From NCBI GenBank assembly GCA_039030075.1, contig JBCCEW010000026.1, positions 1 through 64,000 of the forward strand: a stretch of 64,000 nucleotides of DNA, read 5' to 3'. The notes under the pieces were generated by a model. It was not told the DNA's origin, ran no database searches, and was given only the letters and a program-made list of their open reading frames with translations. Shown here in pieces: positions 7,495 to 26,057 of this stretch. The translations under genes and the position numbers were made by a program. Positions within the stretch are counted from its first letter, which is position 1. Every line of letters begins with the position of its first letter. Source of the stretch: Myxococcota bacterium (GTDB lineage Bacteria; Myxococcota_A; UBA9160; SMWR01).

Positions 7495-9555
7495 ATGAGA
7501 CCGAAGAGCACGAGCTGGCGCATGCGCCATTCGAACCCGCGCCGACGTCTCGTGGTCCTGGGGTGTGCCTTGCTGGGAGCGCTCGCGGTGAGCGCCCCGA
7601 TCACCGAGGGCAGCGACCGCTCGGCGCCGCTCTCCTGGGTGTTGGCCGACCCCGGCCGCGGGCTGCGTCACGCGGTCGATGCGCTCGAGCGGGGCGAAGG
7701 ACACCTGGCGGACGCCTTGCTGCGCGCCGTGGCCGAGCGCCATCCCGTGATCGCCGACCACGCGGAGCTGCTGCGGATGCGCCTGCGCGTCGAAGCCCAG
7801 GACTACGAGGGCGCCGTCGCCTTCGAGTCCGCCTGGACGCGTCGCGAGAGTCCGCTGCGCCCGCGCTTCTACACGCTGCTCGGGGACGCCTATCGCGCAC
7901 TCGATCGCGAGAAGCGCGCCCGCGCGGCCTGGGAGTTCGCGTCGGTCGGAACGGGCGGGCGACAGCGTCTCGCCGACCTCGAAATGCGGATCGCGCGCTC
8001 CTATCTCCGCCAGGGCAATCACGAGCGCGCTGCCGAGCGCTTCCTCGAGGTCTGGACGCGCTACCCGGAGTTCGACGCGGCGGATGCGGCGGGCGCCGAA
8101 CTCGAGACCCTCGAGCGTACCCTGGGGAAGCGCCTGCGAACCCCGGACCGCTGGCGCCGTCGCGGCGATGCGCTGTACCGCCGCTACCACAACGAGACCG
8201 CACTCGAGGCCTACGACCGCGCGCTCACGGGTGGGCTCGGTGCCGACAGCAAGGCCCGCGCGCGACACCAGCGCGCCGAGACGCTCTTCCGGCTGCGCCG
8301 CTACCCCGAGGCGATCGAGGCCTACGACCTCTTGCCGCGCAGCGACAAGCGCCGCATCCAACGGGCCCGCGCCCAGGCTCGCTCGGGTCAGGTCGGCGCG
8401 GGGGCACGCGCCCTGGAAAAGCTCGGGGCCGATACGCGCGGCGCCGACGCGATCCGAGCCACCTATCTGGCGGCGCTCCTGTGGGACGGTGAGAACGGCG
8501 GGCCGAAGGCCCGGCGGCTCTTCTCCGAGGTGATCCGACGCGCGCCGAACTCCAGCCTGGCCGCGTCGTCCCGCTGGTGGCTCGGTTGGGATGCGTTCCG
8601 CAACGGCCAGCACGACACCGCCGAGCGTTACTTGCGCGAGCTCGCGGCCGTCGAGAAGGATCCGATCGCGGCGCTGCGCCCGCGCTACTGGCGGATCCGC
8701 GTGCGCGAAGAGCGCGGCGACGGCGATACCGAGGAGGCCTACGCGGCGCTCGCCCGCGACTATCCGTTCACCTACTACGGCTGGCGCGCGCTCGAGCGCA
8801 CGGAAGGGCCGGTGCCTCCGCCCGCGCGTCGGCTGCTCGACGGCGGTCCCGAAGCGCTGGGTCCCGCGGACCTGGCACGCGCGCGCATCCTGCTGGAAGC
8901 GGGGCTGGTGGAAGAGGCGCGCGAGGAGCTCGAGCATCTGTTCTCGAAAGCGCGTGGCTTCGCCGATCGCATGTCGCTGGCGGGGCTCTACGCCGAAGCC
9001 GGCGACTACAGCCGCGCCCAGCGGCTGATGGTGAACGGGTACACCGAGCACCTGGCCCGGGGGCCCGTGCCCGAGCAGATCGAGCTCTGGTGGCACGCCT
9101 GGCCCGCGCCCTACGAGCACGAGCTGCGCGCGGCGCAGCAGCCCGGGGCGCCGAGCCCGGCGCTTGTGTACTCGATCATGCGCGAAGAGAGCGGCTACCG
9201 GCCCGAGGTGATTTCGGTGTCGGGCGCGCGCGGTCTGCTGCAGCTGATGCCGGAGACCGCGACGCGAGTCGCACGCCGCGTAGCGCTCACCACCTTCGAA
9301 CCCGACGACTTGTTCCGGCCCGAGGTGAACATCCAGCTCGGCAGCGCCTACCTCGGCCAGCTCCTGGCGCGCTTCGACGGCTACGCCCCCGCCGCGATCG
9401 GCAGCTACAACGCCGGGCCCCAGGCGGTGTCGCGCTGGCTCAAGGACGAGCTCGCCTCGGAGGACGTCTGGGTCGAGCAGATCCCGTACAGCCAGACACG
9501 CGCCTACGTGAAGCGCGTGCTGCGCAGCCTTCACGCGTACCGCGTTCTCTACTGA
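7495..9555 (+). CDS. Soluble lytic murein transglycosylase (Slt-type, TPR-rich)
   Basis: A 686-residue exported enzyme that cleaves peptidoglycan with formation of 1,6-anhydro ends. After a basic N-terminus and signal-like segment (about residues 16-36) comes a long helical region with TPR-like units (about 60-500), as in the doughnut domain of Slt70. The C-terminal SLT domain (about 540-660) has the catalytic Glu in SIMREESGYRP, then ARGLLQLMPETA, NIQLGSAYLGQLL and AIGSYNAGPQAV, all hallmark motifs. ATG at 7495 is chosen as the first start after the divergent GHL10 gene (108-bp gap); the ATG at 7522 is an alternative. The sugar kinase gene begins 13 bp after the stop. Confidence 0.94.
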   Translation: MRPKSTSWRMRHSNPRRRLVVLGCALLGALAVSAPITEGSDRSAPLSWVLADPGRGLRHAVDALERGEGHLADALLRAVAERHPVIADHAELLRMRLRVEAQDYEGAVAFESAWTRRESPLRPRFYTLLGDAYRALDREKRARAAWEFASVGTGGRQRLADLEMRIARSYLRQGNHERAAERFLEVWTRYPEFDAADAAGAELETLERTLGKRLRTPDRWRRRGDALYRRYHNETALEAYDRALTGGLGADSKARARHQRAETLFRLRRYPEAIEAYDLLPRSDKRRIQRARAQARSGQVGAGARALEKLGADTRGADAIRATYLAALLWDGENGGPKARRLFSEVIRRAPNSSLAASSRWWLGWDAFRNGQHDTAERYLRELAAVEKDPIAALRPRYWRIRVREERGDGDTEEAYAALARDYPFTYYGWRALERTEGPVPPPARRLLDGGPEALGPADLARARILLEAGLVEEAREELEHLFSKARGFADRMSLAGLYAEAGDYSRAQRLMVNGYTEHLARGPVPEQIELWWHAWPAPYEHELRAAQQPGAPSPALVYSIMREESGYRPEVISVSGARGLLQLMPETATRVARRVALTTFEPDDLFRPEVNIQLGSAYLGQLLARFDGYAPAAIGSYNAGPQAVSRWLKDELASEDVWVEQIPYSQTRAYVKRVLRSLHAYRVLY

Positions 9556-9568
9556 GGCATCGGGTCGC

Positions 9569-10543
9569 TTGGCCACGGGTAGCGGTGATCCCTGGTCGGT
9601 TCCGCTCGGTCCGTCCCGGTCCGAAGGGACGCGACGGCTCGACGTCGTGGGCTTCGGCCAGATCTCGCTGGATCGGGTGGCCACGGTCGATGCGTTTCCT
9701 CACCCGGGCGGTCACGAGAGCCAGCTCGGCGGTGCACTCGATCGTCCCGGTGGCCAGATCGCGACCGCGGTGCTCGCGGCCCGCACGCTGGGGTGCCGTG
9801 CCGCGCTGGGCGGTGCGATCGGCGACGATGCCGAGGGTCAGTCGGCGCTCGCGCCTCTGCGGGCGGCGGGGGTCGACACGGCGGGCGTGGCCGCGGTGCC
9901 CGAGGCCCGGACCCGCAGCGCCTGGATCTTCGTCCGGCGCGGCGACGGGGAGCGCAGCGTCCTCGGGTGGCGGGATCCGCGCTGCGCGATTCCGTCGGAC
10001 CTGCGCGACCGCACGGCCATCGCCGACGCGCGTCTACTGCTCGTGGATACCGATGACCTCGACCTCGCGCGCTGGGCGGTCGACGTGGCACGGCAGGTCG
10101 GAACGGCGACTGTGCTCGACGTCGATCGCGCCGATCCGGACACGTGCAGGCTGGCGCGCGACTGCGATTTTCCGATCGTTTCCGAGCTCTTCGTGCGGGA
10201 CCTCTCGGATTTGCTCGATGTCGAGAAGGTGCTCGGCGAGCTACTGGCTGGCGCCAGCCGACTGGCCATCGCGACCCTCGGGCCGCGCGGCGCGGTGGCG
10301 ATGCTGCCGGGGGGCGCGACGCGCAGGCAAGCGGCCGAGGCGGTGTCGGTCGTCGACACCACCGGAGCCGGGGATGTCTTCCGGGGCGCGTTCGCGTGGG
10401 CGGTCCTGGAGGGCTGGGGCGCCGGCGCCTGCCTGGCGGTGGCCGGTGCGGCCGGGGCCCACGCCTGCCAGGGCCTGGGGGCGCAGGCGGCGTTGCCGAC
10501 CGCGGAGCGGCTTCGAGCCCACGCCAGCGCTCCCGCCGCCTAA
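9569..10543 (+). CDS. PfkB-family carbohydrate kinase
   Basis: The 324-residue protein is a ribokinase-like sugar or nucleoside kinase. It shows the N-terminal motif VVGFGQISLD, the glycine-rich GGALDRPGGQIATAVLAA segment, a substrate lid (GDDAEGQSALAPLRAAGVDT) and the C-terminal ATP/anion-hole signature DTTGAGDVFRGAFAWA with the catalytic Asp. The exact sugar cannot be told from sequence. The first codon appears to be TTG at 9569, 13 bp after the lytic transglycosylase, so both may be in one transcript; a link to recycled anhydro-muropeptide sugars is tempting but is inference only. The next gene starts 32 bp after the stop. Confidence 0.9.
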   Translation: MATGSGDPWSVPLGPSRSEGTRRLDVVGFGQISLDRVATVDAFPHPGGHESQLGGALDRPGGQIATAVLAARTLGCRAALGGAIGDDAEGQSALAPLRAAGVDTAGVAAVPEARTRSAWIFVRRGDGERSVLGWRDPRCAIPSDLRDRTAIADARLLLVDTDDLDLARWAVDVARQVGTATVLDVDRADPDTCRLARDCDFPIVSELFVRDLSDLLDVEKVLGELLAGASRLAIATLGPRGAVAMLPGGATRRQAAEAVSVVDTTGAGDVFRGAFAWAVLEGWGAGACLAVAGAAGAHACQGLGAQAALPTAERLRAHASAPAA

Positions 10544-10575
10544 GGAGAGCCACGCGAGTCGCCGAAACGAGGACC

Positions 10576-11025
10576 ATGGCGTCGGGCAAAGCGAAGAGCA
10601 CGCTCCTGCAGCTGTTGGTGCTGCTGGCGATCCTGGCCGGTGGCGGGGCCTACAACTACCACCGCAACCTCGACCTGGAGCAGGCCGAGCAGCGCCCCTA
10701 TCGCACCCTCTCCGATGCGGATCTCGCCACGCTGCTGGCGGCGACCGAGGCCGAGTCCGAACGCCTCGACGGCCGCTACGAGCAGGCGCGCGGGCAGGGC
10801 GCTTCGCGCGCCACGGGGCAGGCCGGTTTCCAGGCGTTCGAGAGCGCCCAGCGCCGCGGTCGGGCGGTGCGCGAGATGGGCTATCAGGCTTCCGAGATGG
10901 GCGCGAGCCTGGCAGAGCTGCGGAGCGAGACGGCACGGCGCGAGGCCGATGCGGGGGCGTGGTACGCCTTCGCCGGGGACGAGTGGCGGCCGATCCTGCG
11001 GCGCGTCTTCCACGTCGAGCTCTAG
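10576..11025 (+). CDS. Small membrane-anchored protein of unknown function
   Basis: The 149-residue product has one N-terminal hydrophobic helix (about residues 9-25, rich in Leu, Ala and Gly) and then a charged, helix-rich body (Glu, Arg, Ala, Gln), possibly coiled-coil, ending in a short Trp-containing segment. I do not recognise a family. ATG at 10576 is preceded by GAGGACC; it is 32 bp downstream of the PfkB-type kinase on the same strand, so likely in the same transcript. It converges with the FYDLN zinc-ribbon gene, whose stop is 42 bp away. Confidence 0.72.
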   Translation: MASGKAKSTLLQLLVLLAILAGGGAYNYHRNLDLEQAEQRPYRTLSDADLATLLAATEAESERLDGRYEQARGQGASRATGQAGFQAFESAQRRGRAVREMGYQASEMGASLAELRSETARREADAGAWYAFAGDEWRPILRRVFHVEL

Positions 11026-11067
11026 GAAGGCGCGACCCGCGTCATCCGCGGCGTCCGGCTTCGCCCG

Positions 11068-11829
11068 CTACGAGCTCTCTTCTTCTTCCTCTTCCTCGAC
11101 CTCGTCGGGCTCATCGACGCTCGCCAGGCCGAGCCCCATCTCCGGCGTCTCCTCGACGATGATCTCTTCTTCGTCCTCGTCGAGCAGGCGGGGCTTCGCC
11201 CGCGGCTCTTCGGGCTCGGGGTCGGGCGTGCGCGGGGGCGGCACGCGCACCTTCGCCTTGCGCGGGGCCTCGTTCTGGTTGGCGCCGCACTTCGGGCAGA
11301 TCGCTTCGGCCTTGCCCAGGTCGTAGAACTTGGCGCCACAAGAGAAGCAGACGTGTTTCTGTCCGAGCTGGCCGCCGCCGGCGACCGGCTTGATCACCGG
11401 AGTCGGACGGGGCAGCTCCGGCCGCTTCGCGGGCGAGCGGCTCGGCCGGACCTTCGGTGCGCGCTTCGCGCGTCCACCGCTCTTCTTCGTGGCCGGGCGC
11501 GCGCCCTCGGGCTTCGCGATCGGCGGCTCGGCCTTCTTCGCCGGGGCTTTCTTCGCAGCGGCCTTCTTCGCGGCCGTCTTCTTGGCGGTCGTCTTCTTGG
11601 CGGTCGCCTTCTTCGTCGTTTTCTTGGCGGCGGCCTTCTTCTTCGTGGCGGCCTTCTTGGCCGGCGCCTTCTTCTTCGTCGCTTTCTTCGCCGCAACCTT
11701 CTTCTTCGGGACCGCCTTCTTCTTGGTGGCCTTCTTCTTCGAGGGCGCCTTCTTCTTGGTGGCGGCCTTCTTGGTCGCTGCCTTCTTCTTGGCGGTCTTC
11801 TTTTTGGTGGCTTTCTTCGCAGGCGTCAT
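11068..11829 (-). CDS. FYDLN-type zinc-ribbon protein with Lys/Ala-rich N-terminal tail
   Basis: The 253-residue protein has two parts. Residues 1 to about 125 are almost entirely Lys, Ala and Thr in KKAATKK-like repeats, like histone H1 C-terminal tails and other bacterial nucleoid-binding tails. Around residue 165-195 is a Cys4 zinc ribbon, CFSCGAKFYDLGKAE followed by CPKCGANQ, the signature of the TIGR02300 FYDLN family. The C-terminus is Pro-rich and very acidic (runs of Glu). FYDLN proteins are usually about 110-130 residues with only the acidic tail; the long basic arm here is extra. Its ATG overlaps the stop of the UDPGP gene as ATGA. DNA or RNA binding is likely but not shown. Confidence 0.85.
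   Translation of the reverse strand: MTPAKKATKKKTAKKKAATKKAATKKKAPSKKKATKKKAVPKKKVAAKKATKKKAPAKKAATKKKAAAKKTTKKATAKKTTAKKTAAKKAAAKKAPAKKAEPPIAKPEGARPATKKSGGRAKRAPKVRPSRSPAKRPELPRPTPVIKPVAGGGQLGQKHVCFSCGAKFYDLGKAEAICPKCGANQNEAPRKAKVRVPPPRTPDPEPEEPRAKPRLLDEDEEEIIVEETPEMGLGLASVDEPDEVEEEEEEESS
11495..11829 (-). repeat. Low-complexity Lys/Ala codon repeat (histone-tail-like)
   Basis: Degenerate tandem repeats of AAGAAG-GCC-type codons on the minus strand encode the KKA/KKT-rich arm of the FYDLN protein. Unit length varies from about 9 to 24 nt. It is coding and in frame throughout, not a CRISPR or an intergenic repeat. Confidence 0.8.
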
Positions 11830-19471: not shown

Positions 19472-21850
19472 ATGATCCGCGGCGCCCCCTCCGTTTCGCG
19501 AGCCAGCGTGATGCTGACGTTGGTTTTCCTGTTCTGGGCGCAAGCAGCCGAGTCCCGCAGCGCGCGGGTCGTGCGCATCGGCGTGGTCTCCGACGGCGAG
19601 TTCATCCTCGAACCTCTCGACGAGATCCTCCGCAGCGAGATCCGCGACCTGCTCGAAGGCGAGTTCCGGGTCGAGTTTCCGGAATCGGCGCAGGTCACGG
19701 TCGGGGCCACGCCCGAGACATCGCGCGATCTGCTCGAGCAGGTGCTGGCGTCCCCGGAGGTCGACATGGTCGTGGCCCTGGGTCCCGTCGGTACGGCGGC
19801 GCTCGCAACGATCGATCCGCTGCCGAAGCCGGCCTTCGGGACCACGGTGATCGACCGGGAGTTGCAGGGCTTTCCGATCACGCCCGAGGGCACGAGTGGT
19901 CGCCGGAACCTCGCCTATCTGGTGGACGATCTCTCGATCGGAGAAGCCCTCGAAACCTTCGCCGAACTCGCGCATACCGAGCGGCTCGCGCTGCTGCTGG
20001 ATCGCACCCTCGCCGACGAACTCTCGGAGGTCGTCGTCGCCGTCGGAGGAGAGACCGAGTCACGAGGCGTCCGGATCCGACCGATCGCCTTCGAGCGTCC
20101 GATCGAAGCCACCCTGGAGAAACTCCCCGAGGACGTCGACGGCATCCTGCTCGGCTCCCTGTTGACCTTCTCGGCAGCCGAGGTGGAGACGCTCGCCGCG
20201 GCGATCGCCGAGCGGAAGCTCCCGAGCTTCGCGCTGGTGAGCTCGCGCGAGGTCGAGCTGGGCATGCTGGTCACCGCGGCCTCGTCGGCCGACTCGCGCC
20301 AGCTCGGACGGCGTGTCGCGCTGATGATCCAGGATACGCTGCTCGGCGCCCGTCCCGAAGATCTACCCGTGGCCCGCGAGGTCCGGCGCGAGATGACCCT
20401 CAACCTCGCGACGGCGCGGAAGATCGGGCTGCCGGTGCGCTTCGATGTGATGGAGAAGGCGGTGTTGATCCATCCCGGCGGCATGCCCGGCGCCGTCCCG
20501 CTGTCGATCGATGCAGCCATCGAACGCTCGCTCGCAGAGAACCTCGACCTGCGTTCGCAGGACCGGGTCGTGGCCGCGGGCCGAGAGGATGTGTGGCAGG
20601 CGCTGTCGCTGCTGCTGCCGTCGGCGTCGGCCAACAGCGTCGTGGGCTGGTCCGGTGGGAACCCGAACCCCGAGTCGCGCACGACCTCGGCGGGCCTGAC
20701 CGCCCAGCAGGTGCTCTTCGACGAGAGCCTGATCGGAAACCTGACGATCGCGCGCTACGGCCAGGAGGCGGTGGAGGCGGTGCGGGAACAGGTCCGCCAG
20801 GACCTCGTGCAGGCCACGGGAACGGCCTACCTCGAGGTGCTGCGCGCCGCGACCGCACTCCGCATCCAGCGCGAGAACCTGCGCGTGACCCGGGCCAACC
20901 TCGAGCTGGCCCGCACGCGAAAGCGGATCGGCACGGCGTCGGCCGGGGAGGTCTACCGCTGGGAGAGCGAAGAGGCGAACGCGACCCGCGATCTGGTGCT
21001 CGCGCGGGCCACGGACCGCAACGCGCGCACATCCTTCAACCGTGTTCTCAACGTTCCCCTCGAGAAGCCCTACGACCTTGATGATGTGACGATCGAACAG
21101 ATCAGCCCGATCTTCTCGGCGCGCGAACTCGAGCCGTACTTCGAGGCGCCCGCCTTGATGGAACACGTCCGGGAGTACGTCGTGGCGCGCGCCCTCCAGT
21201 TCGCGCCCGAGCTGGCCGTGGTCGACGCCCAGGTGAAGGCCCAGGAGCGCTTGCTCGACACGCGGGGGCGCACCTTCTACCTGCCGCGCTTGCTGGCCAC
21301 GGCCCAGGCCGACCGGATCTTCGACCAGGACGTCGGTGCGGTGAAGGGCGACGAATCGCGCAGCTGGTCGGCCGGGGTGCAGGCGTCGATTCCCCTCGCC
21401 GAAGGTGGCGGCCGAGTCGCCGAGCTGCGCCAGGCCCGCGAAGAGCTCGCCCAGCTGCGCATCGACCGCCGCTCGGAAGCCCAGCAGGTCGAGGAGCGCG
21501 TGCGGACGGCCGCGAACACCGCCCAGGCGAGCTTCGTGGCGATCGATCTCACGGCGCGCGCCGCCGAGGCCGGCCGGCGCACCCTCGAACTCGTGACCGA
21601 CGCCTATTCGCGCGGTGCAGTCGACGTGCTCGACCTCCTCGATGCCCAGAACAACGCGCTGGCGTCGGAGCAGCTCGCTGCCAATGCGGTCTACGATCAC
21701 GCGATCGATCTCCTGGCCCTGCAGCGCGCCGGCGGGGAGTTCGAGCTGCTGGAAACGCCGAGCCAGCGCTCGAACCGGGTCGAACGCATGCTGGAGTTCC
21801 TGTCGGACCGCACCGGGACGTTCGGCGTAGGCCCGACCCCGATCCCATGA
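19472..21850 (+). CDS. Fusion of an ABC-type periplasmic binding domain with a TolC-family channel
   Basis: The 792-residue product has a signal peptide (about residues 8-28), then about 310 residues that look like an ABC_sub_bind (TrpX-like) periplasmic binding protein: RIGVVSDGEF at the start, VDMVVALGPVGTAAL, GILLGSLLTFS and LPSFALVSSREVELGML. From about 340 to the end is an outer membrane efflux (OEP) domain with two coiled-coil repeats, for example ENLDLRSQDRVVAAGRE, GTAYLEVLRA, ELARTRKRIGTASAGEVYRW and SRGAVDVLDLLDAQNNAL. Normal TolC proteins are 430-500 residues. ATG at 19472 follows a short purine run. Its stop overlaps the membrane-fusion gene as ATGA, so it is the exit duct of the RND pump coded next. 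The binding domain might sense or present a substrate. Confidence 0.86.
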   Translation: MIRGAPSVSRASVMLTLVFLFWAQAAESRSARVVRIGVVSDGEFILEPLDEILRSEIRDLLEGEFRVEFPESAQVTVGATPETSRDLLEQVLASPEVDMVVALGPVGTAALATIDPLPKPAFGTTVIDRELQGFPITPEGTSGRRNLAYLVDDLSIGEALETFAELAHTERLALLLDRTLADELSEVVVAVGGETESRGVRIRPIAFERPIEATLEKLPEDVDGILLGSLLTFSAAEVETLAAAIAERKLPSFALVSSREVELGMLVTAASSADSRQLGRRVALMIQDTLLGARPEDLPVAREVRREMTLNLATARKIGLPVRFDVMEKAVLIHPGGMPGAVPLSIDAAIERSLAENLDLRSQDRVVAAGREDVWQALSLLLPSASANSVVGWSGGNPNPESRTTSAGLTAQQVLFDESLIGNLTIARYGQEAVEAVREQVRQDLVQATGTAYLEVLRAATALRIQRENLRVTRANLELARTRKRIGTASAGEVYRWESEEANATRDLVLARATDRNARTSFNRVLNVPLEKPYDLDDVTIEQISPIFSARELEPYFEAPALMEHVREYVVARALQFAPELAVVDAQVKAQERLLDTRGRTFYLPRLLATAQADRIFDQDVGAVKGDESRSWSAGVQASIPLAEGGGRVAELRQAREELAQLRIDRRSEAQQVEERVRTAANTAQASFVAIDLTARAAEAGRRTLELVTDAYSRGAVDVLDLLDAQNNALASEQLAANAVYDHAIDLLALQRAGGEFELLETPSQRSNRVERMLEFLSDRTGTFGVGPTPIP

Positions 21851-23007
21851 GGTATCCGTTGCGCGAGAACAGCACTCGGTCGTTCCTGACCTCGTTGACC
21901 GTCGGGCTCTGCCTGACGATGGCGCTGGCGTGCGAGGAGGAGGCCGCGCTCGAGCGCGAGGTGATCCGCAGCGTCGTCACCACCCGCATCGAGGCGCCGG
22001 GCGAGCGGCGCAAGCGGGTCTTCAGCGGGACCGCCCAGTCCCGCGATCGCACGGAGCTGAGCTTCCAGGTGAGCGGCAAGATCCAGGCGATCCATCACGG
22101 GACCGGCGATCAGGTCCCGGCCGGAACCCTGATCGCGGAGCTCGAACCGACCGACTTCGATCTGGCGCTGCGCGAGGCGCGCGCCGCATCGAGCCAGGCC
22201 GCTGCGGAGGCGCGCAACGCATCCGCGAACTACCGCCGCGTTCGCGCACTCTACGAGCGGGAGGGCGTGTCCCGCGAAGAACTCGATCAGGCCCGCACAG
22301 CGGAAGAGACTACCCAGGCGAACGCGAGCGTCGCCTCGAACCGCGTTCGCCAGGCCGAACAGCAGCTGGCCTACACGAAGCTCTACACGCCGAGCGACGG
22401 CGCCATCAGCGCCGTGCCAGCCGATGCAGGCGAGAACATCCAGGCCGGCGAACCCGTCGCGATCTTCCAGACCGGCGGTCCTCCGGAAGTCATCATCGCG
22501 ATGCCCGAGAATCTGATTCCCGCCGTCAACGAGGACGACCCGGTCGAGGTCGGCTTCGACGCGTTTCCCGACGCGCGCTACGACGCGGTCGTGCGCGAAG
22601 TGGGGATCGCCCCCGACGAGGGTGGGACCACGTATCCGGTCACCGTCCAGATCGACGCCGACTGGGCGCAGATCCGCCCGGGCATGAGCGCCGACGTGGC
22701 GTTCTCCTTCGCGCTGGACGAGCAGGACGCCGTGATCCTCCCGGTCGGAGCCGTGGGGCGGGACCGCTCGGGTCACTACGTCTTCGTGGTCGAGCCGGAG
22801 GCCGAGGCCGAGACCCAGACGGAGACGGCGAGACTCGAGCGCTTCGGCACGACCCGAAAGCGCTACGTCGAGGTCGCGGAGATCGTGGACGAAGGAATCG
22901 CCCTCCGCGACGGCGTGCGCGGAGGCGAGCGCATCGTGATCGCCGGTGTGCCGCGGGTTCAGGACGGCCTGCGCGTGCGGATCCTGGACGAGGGCGACTG
23001 GCCGTGA
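21847..23007 (+). CDS. RND efflux membrane-fusion lipoprotein
   Basis: A 386-residue HlyD/AcrA-type adaptor. The N-terminus ends in a lipobox (MALAC, about residues 25-29), so it is anchored in the inner membrane. Then come a barrel/lipoyl half (SFQVSGKIQAIHHGTGDQV), a short helical hairpin (about 85-170), the second lipoyl half (LYTPSDGAISAVPADAGENI), a beta-barrel and a C-terminal domain (GVRGGERIVIAG). Its ATG overlaps the stop of the TolC fusion and its stop overlaps the GTG of the permease (GTGA), so the three proteins are made together. It links pump to channel in the periplasm. Confidence 0.95.
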   Translation: MRYPLRENSTRSFLTSLTVGLCLTMALACEEEAALEREVIRSVVTTRIEAPGERRKRVFSGTAQSRDRTELSFQVSGKIQAIHHGTGDQVPAGTLIAELEPTDFDLALREARAASSQAAAEARNASANYRRVRALYEREGVSREELDQARTAEETTQANASVASNRVRQAEQQLAYTKLYTPSDGAISAVPADAGENIQAGEPVAIFQTGGPPEVIIAMPENLIPAVNEDDPVEVGFDAFPDARYDAVVREVGIAPDEGGTTYPVTVQIDADWAQIRPGMSADVAFSFALDEQDAVILPVGAVGRDRSGHYVFVVEPEAEAETQTETARLERFGTTRKRYVEVAEIVDEGIALRDGVRGGERIVIAGVPRVQDGLRVRILDEGDWP

Positions 23008-26000
23008 GCCTCACCGAGCTCGCGATCTCGCGGGATCGCATCACCGCCATCGCGACGCTCCTGATCCTCGTCTCGGGGACGAGCACCTACTTCTCGATGC
23101 CGCGGGACGAGGATCCGGGCTTCCTGATCCGGGTCGCGACCGTGCGGACGATGTTCCCGGGTGCGAGTCCCACCCGCGTGGAGCAGCTCGTCACCGATCG
23201 CATCGAGACCGCGGTCCGGCAGATCCCGGAGCTGGAGAAGGTCACCAGCCAGTCGCGCGAGGGCATTTCGCTCGTCACGGTCGAGTTGCGCGACGAGATC
23301 TTCGACCTGCAGCCGGTGTGGGACGACCTGCGACGCAAGGTCGAGGCGATCGAGGGGGATCTGCCCGACGGGATCCAGGGGCCGTTCGTCGACGACGAGG
23401 TCGGCGATGTCTACGGCATCCTGATCTCGGTCACCGGGCCGGGCTATGCCTACCGCGACCTCTATGAGGTGGCCAAGGACACGCGGGACGAGCTGCTCCT
23501 GCTCGTGGACGCGGCGAAGGTCGAGATCTACGGCGCCCAGGAGGAGCGCATCTTCCTCGAGTTCACGAACACGCGCCTGGCCGAGTACGGGCTCTCCCCC
23601 GCGATGCTCAAAGACATTCTGGCTGCCCAGAACATCCTCTCGGCCGGGGGCAGCGTGGTCGTCGACAGCGAGCGCCTCTCCCTCGAACCCACCGGGAACT
23701 TCGAGACCCAGGAACAGCTCGCCGAGGCGGCGATCGCGATCCCGTCCGGCGAGCTCGTACCGCTCCGCGACATGGTCGACGTGCGGCGCGGCTACATCGA
23801 CCCGCCACGCGTGCTGCGTCGCGCGAACGGCGCCCCTGCGCTGGGGCTCGCCGTCTCGATGCGCGACGGCGGCAACCTGATCGAGCTCGGCGAGCAGGTG
23901 ACGGGAGTGCTCGATCGCGTGAGGCCGCGCTTCCCGCTCGGCATCGAGCTCGAGCTGGCTCAGTTTCAGCCGGAGATCGTGAGCCGCAAGGTGAGCGAGT
24001 TCGAGTCGAATCTGCTCCAGTCGGTCGCCATCGTGGCAGGCGTCATGCTGATCACGCTGGGCCTGCGCACCGGGCTGATCGTCGCGTCGCTGGTGCCGAG
24101 TGCGATGGTGTTTGCGATCGCCGTGATGGGCGGTCTCGAGATCGGACTCGACCAGATGTCGCTGGCCGCGTTGATCATCGCCCTCGGCATGCTCGTGGAC
24201 AACGCAATCGTGATGTCCGAGTCGATCATGGTCCAGATGGCGGCAGGGAAGCGGGCGGTGGCCGCGGCGGTCGACAGCGCGAAAGAGCTGGCGGTCCCGC
24301 TGCTGACCTCGTCGCTCACGACCGCAGCGGCCTTCCTTCCGATCTATCTGGCCGAGAACGCGTCTGGCGAGTACACGGCCCCGATCTTCAAGGTCGTGAC
24401 GATCACGCTGCTTTGTTCCTGGCTGGTGTCGCTGACCCTGATACCGCTGCTCTGCGTGCGCTTCCTCCGGGTCGAACCCCAGGACGAGAACTTCGAGACT
24501 CCCTTCTACCGGCGCTACCGGGGCGTGCTGGCCACCGCGCTGCGCCGACCCTGGTTGTCGTTGGCCGCGATGGTCGGCGTCCTGTTCTTCGCGCTCTTCT
24601 GTTTCCGGTTCCTCCCGAACATCTTCTTCCCGGACAACGACCGTCCGCTCCTCGTGGGCGAGTTCGCGTTCCCCTTCGGCACGGCGATCGAACACACGGC
24701 CGAGGCGACGACCCGGATCGAGTCGTACATCCAGGAGAACCTGCGCGTCGACGCGTCGCGCAGCGAAGGCGTCACCGACTGGGTGACCTACGTCGGAGAC
24801 GGCGGGCCCCGCTTCACGCTCGGATACAACTCGGAGGAGTCGGCGCCCTACATCGCGGCGATGCTGATCAACGCGACGAATCGCGAGACCAGCATCGAGG
24901 CCGGTCGCGCGCTGGAAACCTGGGCGAACGAGAGCTTCCCCGGGCTGAAGGCGACGGTCCGCCCGCTGCAGACCGGTCCGGGGGGCTGGCCGCCGATCCA
25001 GATCGAGATCGCGGGCCGCGAGCTCGATCCGCTCTTCGCGATCGTCGACGAGGTGAAGCAGCAGCTGCGGGAAACGCCGGGGACGCGCCTGATCGACGAT
25101 GACTGGGGGGCGCAGGCAAAGAAGCTCGTGATCCGGATCGACCAGGAGCGCGCGCGCCGGGCCGGGCTGACCAGCCAGGACGTGGCGGTATCCCTCCAGA
25201 GCTATCTCTCGGGGCTCGAGGCGACCGACTTCCGCGAGGGCGAGGAGCTCATCCCGATCACGCTGCGGTCGGCCGTGCGCGGGCGCGCGGACCTCGGCGC
25301 GCTGGAGAGCATCAACGTCTCGTCGCAGGCCTCGGGCACCGCGGTGCCCCTGAAACAGATCGCCGACGTCGAGCCGGTCTGGGAGCCGGGGATCATCCGG
25401 CGTCGCGACCGGCTGCGCACCGTCACCGTCGAGGCGGCCCCGACCGCCGGCGTGACCTCGGCGGAGATCGTGGGCAGCCTCGCGCCGTGGCTGGAGGCGC
25501 GCAGCGCCGAGTGGCCGCAGGGCTACGCGTTCCGCTTTGCGGGCGAGTTCGAGGACTCGAGCGCGGCGAACGACGCGATCGGCGAGAAGCTGCCGATTGC
25601 GGGATTGGCCATCGCGATGCTGCTCGTCCTCCAGTTCAACTCGCTTCGCAAGCCGACGATCATCCTGCTGACGATTCCCTTCGGCCTGATCGGAGTGGTG
25701 TTCGGGCTGCTGGTGGCCCGGAGCTACTTCGGGTTCATGACCCTGCTGGGGGTGATCTCGTTGTCCGGCATCATCATCAACAACGCGATCGTGTTGATCG
25801 ACCGGATCCAGATCGAGCTCGACGGCGGGCTCACGCCCTTCGAGGCGGTGCTCCAGGCCGCTCAGCGTCGCCTGCGACCCATCCTGCTCACGACGGCGAC
25901 CACCGCCGGCGGCCTGATTCCGCTCTGGCTCGGAGGCGGGCCGATGTTCGAGCCGATGGCGATCGCCATCCTGTTCGGCCTGCTCTTCGGCACGGCCCTC

Positions 26001-26057
26001 ACCCTCGGCCTGGTCCCGATCCTCTACACGATCTTCTACCGCGTGGAGACGCGCTGA
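23004..26057 (+). CDS. RND-family efflux permease
   Basis: The 1017-residue inner-membrane pump has the AcrB-type plan: TM1, a large periplasmic loop (about 35-330), six helices, a second large loop and a last helix set. Motifs include PRDEDPG after TM1, the TM4 sequence LVDNAIVMSE (one Asp where AcrB has two) and the TM10 sequence IIINNAIVLIDRI (Asn where AcrB has the relay Lys). The two halves are similar, as expected for an internal duplication. GTG at 23004 overlaps the adaptor stop. Substrate is unknown; the AcrB-like size and no metal-site motif (such as the CzcA type) favour organic compounds. A change in the proton relay is noted under findings. Confidence 0.96.
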   Translation: MSLTELAISRDRITAIATLLILVSGTSTYFSMPRDEDPGFLIRVATVRTMFPGASPTRVEQLVTDRIETAVRQIPELEKVTSQSREGISLVTVELRDEIFDLQPVWDDLRRKVEAIEGDLPDGIQGPFVDDEVGDVYGILISVTGPGYAYRDLYEVAKDTRDELLLLVDAAKVEIYGAQEERIFLEFTNTRLAEYGLSPAMLKDILAAQNILSAGGSVVVDSERLSLEPTGNFETQEQLAEAAIAIPSGELVPLRDMVDVRRGYIDPPRVLRRANGAPALGLAVSMRDGGNLIELGEQVTGVLDRVRPRFPLGIELELAQFQPEIVSRKVSEFESNLLQSVAIVAGVMLITLGLRTGLIVASLVPSAMVFAIAVMGGLEIGLDQMSLAALIIALGMLVDNAIVMSESIMVQMAAGKRAVAAAVDSAKELAVPLLTSSLTTAAAFLPIYLAENASGEYTAPIFKVVTITLLCSWLVSLTLIPLLCVRFLRVEPQDENFETPFYRRYRGVLATALRRPWLSLAAMVGVLFFALFCFRFLPNIFFPDNDRPLLVGEFAFPFGTAIEHTAEATTRIESYIQENLRVDASRSEGVTDWVTYVGDGGPRFTLGYNSEESAPYIAAMLINATNRETSIEAGRALETWANESFPGLKATVRPLQTGPGGWPPIQIEIAGRELDPLFAIVDEVKQQLRETPGTRLIDDDWGAQAKKLVIRIDQERARRAGLTSQDVAVSLQSYLSGLEATDFREGEELIPITLRSAVRGRADLGALESINVSSQASGTAVPLKQIADVEPVWEPGIIRRRDRLRTVTVEAAPTAGVTSAEIVGSLAPWLEARSAEWPQGYAFRFAGEFEDSSAANDAIGEKLPIAGLAIAMLLVLQFNSLRKPTIILLTIPFGLIGVVFGLLVARSYFGFMTLLGVISLSGIIINNAIVLIDRIQIELDGGLTPFEAVLQAAQRRLRPILLTTATTAGGLIPLWLGGGPMFEPMAIAILFGLLFGTALTLGLVPILYTIFYRVETR

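Follow-up and report, generated by a model that had tools for sequence, protein, structure and literature searches.

Within the window, that is the whole stretch of 64,000 nucleotides that was analysed, positions 19472-21850 are occupied by a gene that fuses a periplasmic solute-binding domain to an outer-membrane channel of the TolC type. The gene forms a single open frame of 792 amino acids on the + strand, which also carries all other features of the locus discussed here; it starts with an ATG at 19472, preceded by GAGTAGGACC, and ends with a TGA at 21848-21850. From the N-terminus, the encoded protein comprises a signal peptide, a type I solute-binding domain, a linker of about ten residues and a full TolC channel. 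The signal peptide (residues 1-26; 19472-19549) is of the Sec type, as judged from the sequence and from a hydrophobic helix at residues 10-27 of the structural model. A lipobox cysteine is absent, and a cysteine count gave zero Cys ahead of the TolC part. The two-lobed binding domain, an ABC_sub_bind/TrpX fold, covers residues ~28-336 (19553-20479) and is connected to the first helix of the TolC part by the short linker (~residues 337-345; 20480-20506), which was delimited by the secondary structure of the model. In the full AlphaFold model, this region consists of a strand at 331-333, a strand at 342-344 and a helix at 346-356. The full-length model has a pLDDT of 86.3, and one and the same chain matches both the TolC structure 7NG8 (TM 0.86) and the binding protein 3LFT (TM 0.80; Foldseek, target-normalised). 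An earlier inspection of the letters alone, hereafter the sequence-only reading, had described the gene as continuous, without a frameshift and overlapping the next gene, all of which was borne out by the open frame and an ATGA overlap. It had also held that the gene is not an assembly join. A chimeric assembly as the source of the fusion is indeed ruled out, since the identical architecture is seen in many unrelated assemblies.

The channel domain (residues 344-792; 20501-21847) is what the sequence-only reading had taken it to be, a normal TolC channel. The OEP family PF02321 matches in two stretches (E 7e-41, 140.5 bits vs a cut-off of 22), corresponding to two helical-hairpin/beta-hairpin repeats with adaptor-docking tips, whose residues Y712, G715 and D724-A725-Q726 are conserved. 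The AlphaFold model shows the TolC fold, with a long helical barrel and beta-barrel strands, and aligns with Klebsiella TolC at the TM of 0.86 given above for 7NG8. As the channel part is thus a normal TolC that retains its docking tips, export by the adjoining pump is a safe reading.

The fusion gene shares the four nucleotides ATGA (21847-21850) with the gene of an RND periplasmic adaptor, or membrane fusion protein, of 386 amino acids (21847-23007; TIGR01730, E 1e-63, above cut-off), whose N-terminus carries a lipobox-like MALAC29. The adaptor gene in turn overlaps by GTGA (23004-23007) with the gene of an RND pump of 1017 amino acids (23004-26057), identified by RND families and by phmmer searches against the PDB. 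The closest solved relatives of the pump are MexK (E 4e-178) and 6VEJ (TriC; E 5e-171), and none of the named NCBIfam RND subfamilies was reached (485.9 vs a cut-off of 1250). The operon with an RND adaptor and pump that had been read from the letters is therefore present; it consists of the fusion, the adaptor and the pump, and an ABC-importer permease or ATPase is absent from it.

The N-terminal binding domain

The assignment of residues ~30-340 to an ABC_sub_bind/TrpX-type protein, as first proposed from the sequence, holds with slightly shifted borders and rests on several lines of evidence. A Pfam search for the two expected families returned PF02321 twice, as described above, and PF04392 at threshold: residues 211-324 reach 25.8 bits when the full protein is searched and 27.7 when the N-terminal part is searched alone, with a cut-off of 25.9, and the match covers the C-terminal lobe only. 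The TrpX equivalog NF041285 of NCBIfam gave similar values (25.2 bits for the full protein and 27.3 for the N-terminal part), far below its cut-off of 390. A profile built from 34 fused N-terminal domains, in turn, matched 3LKV (E 1.3e-13), CD0873/6HNI (2.4e-7) and TrpX/3LFT (3.8e-6). These matches span profile positions 47-304 of 309, including parts of the N-lobe missed by Pfam, and the similarity consequently extends beyond the piece detected there.

Modelled alone, the domain reaches a pLDDT of 89.6 and aligns with 3LFT at Z 25.2 over 288 residues and with 3LKV at Z 25.1, while the next fold families follow at Z ~17; against ligand-bound structures, the TM is only ~0.7. The hinge and both lobes are retained, so that a full two-lobed periplasmic binding fold is modelled in the N-terminal 310 residues, and the outcome that would have overturned the sequence-only reading, a segment lacking such a fold, did not occur. 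PDB entries 5Z6V/6K1X, a Rhodothermus marinus ‘substrate-binding protein’ of ~157 residues, match model residues 126-308 only, perhaps as a relative that consists of the C-lobe alone. In the whole genome, PF04392 has a single match, namely the fusion gene; hence, this domain type serves no importer of that family there.

The fused domains share a conserved signature. Asp41 is invariant (33/33 domains), Gly42, Gly104, Lys119-Pro120, Gln132, Asn146 and Tyr149 are near-invariant, and Glu56 and Ser142-Gly143 are also kept. Among these conserved positions, Asp41, Gly42, Glu56, Lys119, Gln132, Ser142 and Tyr149, together with Pro135, do not carry the common residue of 20 stand-alone relatives. The C-lobe motif LVINMxTA, by contrast, is common to both sets. 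A comparison of loops on the cleft side and the far side of the fused domains found conservation not to be higher on the cleft side (p 0.92), and a stand-alone binding-protein control gave the same pattern.

In Streptococcus suis TrpX, the aromatic amino acid is held by T108, A127, T129, D152 and N233 (PMC9382623), and a common binding mode including these residues has been described for CD0873, 3LKV and 3LFT (PMC6816091). According to the profile alignment, the equivalents of T108, A127 and T129 in the fusion are G104, T125 and I127. The column equivalent to D152 holds an Asp in the window protein, which is unconserved in the family, and that of N233 falls in the variable region of T232. The amino-acid-holding residues are thus mostly replaced and the known TrpX ligand chemistry is mostly not kept; these substitutions make it unlikely that the fused family recognises free aromatic amino acids as TrpX does.

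Recurrence and inheritance of the fusion

A profile scan of genome contigs identified 38 loci with 45 fused genes in about ten phyla, which, by record title or placement, are Myxococcota, Acidobacteriota, Planctomycetota, Latescibacterota, Gemmatimonadota, Hydrogenedentota, Desulfobacterota, Bacteroidota, Zixibacteria and Proteobacteria. These loci were recovered with a closer subset alignment of fused domains; the same scan gave no match with the window domain alone as query, and it found no locus in which the fused-type subtype of the domain occurs without a channel. Another 19 loci held remote stand-alone binding proteins only, and a search of phage records for the fusion gave no match. Plasmids add Campylobacterota and Fusobacteriota, bringing the spread to about twelve phyla. 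In tblastn searches against plasmids, a fusion was found in Sulfuricurvum kujiense (94% query coverage, E 3e-75) and another in Cetobacterium somerae, where it heads an adaptor-RND operon adjoined by a two-component system. A second Cetobacterium copy resides on another plasmid. The N-terminal domains of Cetobacterium are shorter and diverged, scoring 35 and 15 bits against the family profile with negative controls at about -1 and -2, and the second copy is therefore a weak case.

Among 284 genomes of the window's phylum, 14 gave a match; in 13 the matching open frames are PBP-TolC fusions, some of them truncated by the end of a contig, and in one a remote importer protein was hit. The domain is present in 19 of the 34 genomes of one family, and the window's own order has the fusion in 2 of 80 genomes. 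One match (G110, locus L046) was rejected as a TolC fusion and represents a remote importer protein. When read by eye, its 933-aa frame (8344-11145, - strand) fuses a permease of the ABC-importer type with a tandem of two TrpX-like binding domains, the layout of a single-chain importer.

An adaptor and/or RND gene lies directly beside the fusion in 30 of the 38 loci. The usual partner is a MexK/TriC-like RND pump and the common gene order is fusion-adaptor-pump, with the pump coming first in L073, L077 and L081. The remaining eight loci comprise three that end at contig ends or gaps (L054, L055 and L071), four without a pump directly beside the fusion (L065, L066, L069 and L078) and one in a Hydrogenedentota bin (L070, 4064-10295), in which the fusion is accompanied by two ABC-2 permeases and an HlyD adaptor in place of an RND pump. 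Similarly, the Sulfuricurvum fusion (L014, 5899-13155) is located between a TetR regulator and an HlyD adaptor with an RbbA-type ABC exporter. The sequence-only reading was correct in that the fusion is real; its picture missed the recurrence over about twelve phyla, the conserved motif of the fused domains and the pairing with ABC-2 exporters. A pump about 50% identical to that of the window (G231) is adjoined by an adaptor gene with no channel gene beside it, and the pump clade consequently does not strictly need a linked fused channel.

An adaptor-RND pair of this kind, with ~50% identity to the window's pump and no channel gene beside it, lies in L140 (5366-9837). Several other loci show further peculiarities. 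Tandem pairs of different PBP-TolC fusion genes exist in the Myxococcota loci L035, L038, L042, L048, L050, L052, L053, L055, L056 and L057, and in several such loci a second, divergent adaptor-RND pair is found upstream, as if each pump had its own channel type. The pumpless fusion gene on a Latescibacterota chromosome (L066, 7821-9755) is a 644-aa frame that ends inside the TolC part. In a Desulfobacula bin (L073, 202-4547), the upstream adaptor and RND genes are split into several frames and the fusion gene is intact.

Pairwise distances of domain and channel correlate at r 0.91 over 35 proteins, a value reached in none of 2000 permutations, so that both parts have been inherited together; between fusion and pump, r is 0.75 over 24 operons. 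On a quick tree of the TolC part with long branches, the fused label needs 2 changes vs 9.3 for shuffled labels, and a single clade of fused proteins was not rejected (p-AU 0.186). Within the limits of such a tree, a single origin of the fusion is likely, and the simplest reading is that one or a few old fusions were inherited and transferred as a unit. The mean column entropy is 2.10 bits in the binding domain and 1.98 bits in the channel. The domain is thus about as conserved as the channel and does not represent a decaying remnant.

Possible roles of the channel-borne domain

Channels of the TolC family are usually treated as passive ducts that are opened by their adaptors. The fusion would serve an RND tripartite exporter as its outer-membrane exit duct, with a covalent type I solute-binding domain on every TolC protomer, and the pump and adaptor would drive export as in MexJK and TriABC. 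The first TolC helix belongs to the equatorial region, and since the short linker runs straight into this helix, the three binding domains would surround the channel on its outer side, at the level of the equatorial belt. On binding a ligand in the periplasm, which could be the exported compound or a metabolite of the envelope, the domain might then change its conformation and so bias duct opening or the recruitment of the duct to the adaptor and pump. The equatorial belt of TolC has been described (PMC13095208; PMC13082787), and the coiled coils are known to pivot about the equatorial domain on channel opening (PMC13095208), so that a ligand-responsive domain at this position could bias opening or assembly. 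We tentatively prefer this reading, namely an exit duct whose periplasmic binding domain at the equatorial belt couples the binding of a ligand or partner to channel opening or pump assembly, at a confidence that falls just short of even. The architecture and the genetic linkage are shown by the data; the coupling is inferred. This reading is favoured by the retained hinge and lobes, the conservation of the domain and its signature residues, the correlated distances of domain, channel and pump, the neighbouring adaptor and pump genes and the absence of another PF04392 protein from the genome. The replaced amino-acid-holding residues, the TM of only ~0.7 to ligand-bound structures and the close pump relatives without a linked channel speak against it. 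The earlier suggestion that the domain senses the substrate or gates the exit duct likewise appears plausible. A stricter version, in which the fusions form a widespread and overlooked class of ligand-gated efflux ducts and a periplasmic metabolite on the fused domain directly controls TolC opening, is unlikely; if true, the outer membrane would be a switching point of export in addition to the inner-membrane pump.

The main rival to such coupling is a structural or assembly module. In this case, the fold would have lost the ability to bind a ligand and would work as a clamp around the equatorial belt, either between proteins or as an envelope anchor, that keeps the channel at the proper height below the outer membrane or against peptidoglycan. 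The precedent is YbjP, which attaches to the equatorial domain of E. coli TolC in a 3:3 complex and has been proposed to position the channel (PMC13095208; PMC13082787). Like YbjP-TolC, the fusion has an accessory periplasmic module, which is expected at the equatorial belt with three copies per trimer. YbjP, however, is a separate lipoprotein whose fold is not that of a binding protein, whereas the module of the fusion is covalent and has such a fold. A positioning role would agree with the missing lipid anchor of the window protein and with the replacement of most amino-acid-holding residues of TrpX, but a clamp would make the hinge, the two lobes and the conserved loop residues at the ends of strands 1 and 3 (Asp41-Gly42 and Gly104) superfluous, and we consider it possible, if rather doubtful.

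RND pumps take their substrates from the periplasm. The domain could accordingly capture the compound to be exported and deliver it to the adaptor or pump at a higher effective concentration, in the style of importer-binding proteins. Such a role would fit both the presence of a binding-protein fold in the operon of a MexK/TriC-like pump and the fact that Sulfuricurvum and Hydrogenedentota have the fusion paired with ABC-2 exporters. By topology, however, the domain would sit outside the duct near the equator, far from the RND entrances at the inner-membrane side, and in the established tripartite geometry no path leads from the equatorial outside position into the lumen. This makes a transfer of substrate into the duct less likely, and substrate capture as a whole appears improbable. 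A chimeric assembly is ruled out, as stated above, and that the domain is a neutral passenger, a tolerated fusion devoid of function, can be given hardly any credence: its rarity within the window's own order (2/80 genomes) would suit a passenger, but the identical architecture at 38 loci in about ten phyla and on plasmids of two more, the near-equal conservation of domain and channel and the presence of the domain in 19 of 34 genomes of one family all speak against it.

On the preferred reading of a coupled exit duct, as in the case of a clamp, export channels may have a ligand-responsive or positioning module that has escaped recognition. A conserved binding domain that is built into the channel in about twelve phyla and kept with the pump would provide a testable case of exporter control at the outer-membrane end.

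Relation to known systems and annotation

With the TolC or outer membrane factor family (E. coli TolC, OprM and CusC), the fusion shares the two OEP repeats, the docking tips and the operon with adaptor and RND pump, and it differs by the ~310 additional N-terminal residues that form the solute-binding domain and by the absence of a lipid anchor. Among solved systems, MexJK-OpmH and TriABC-OpmH have the closest pumps (MexK and TriC) and an identical three-part layout. OpmH is a plain TolC homologue, whereas in the fusion system the operon itself encodes the channel, which has the additional domain. With the TrpX/ABC_sub_bind proteins (PF04392; 3LFT, 3LKV and CD0873 6HNI), the fusion has in common the two-lobed type I fold (Z 25) and the C-lobe motifs LVINMxTA and VExG. 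In contrast to these proteins, it is attached to a channel, unlipidated and part of an exporter operon, its amino-acid-holding residues are mostly replaced, and it has a motif of its own, consisting of Asp-Gly after strand 1, Lys-Pro, Gln and Ser-Gly-x-x-Asn-Leu-x-Tyr.

No description of a TolC/binding-protein fusion was found in the open-access literature searched, including the YbjP papers, or in those parts of a large review that a term search reached. Both halves are of known kinds and, as far as this literature shows, their combination, its spread and the conserved motif are undescribed. PF04392 matches 13 of 35 fused proteins at E 1e-3, and database annotation is inconsistent and mostly overlooks the domain, the Sulfuricurvum gene being labelled ‘ABC transporter substrate binding protein’ and the Cetobacterium gene ‘TolC family protein’. 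These two circumstances partly explain why the fusion could go unnoticed, and the annotation of the fusion genes would change.
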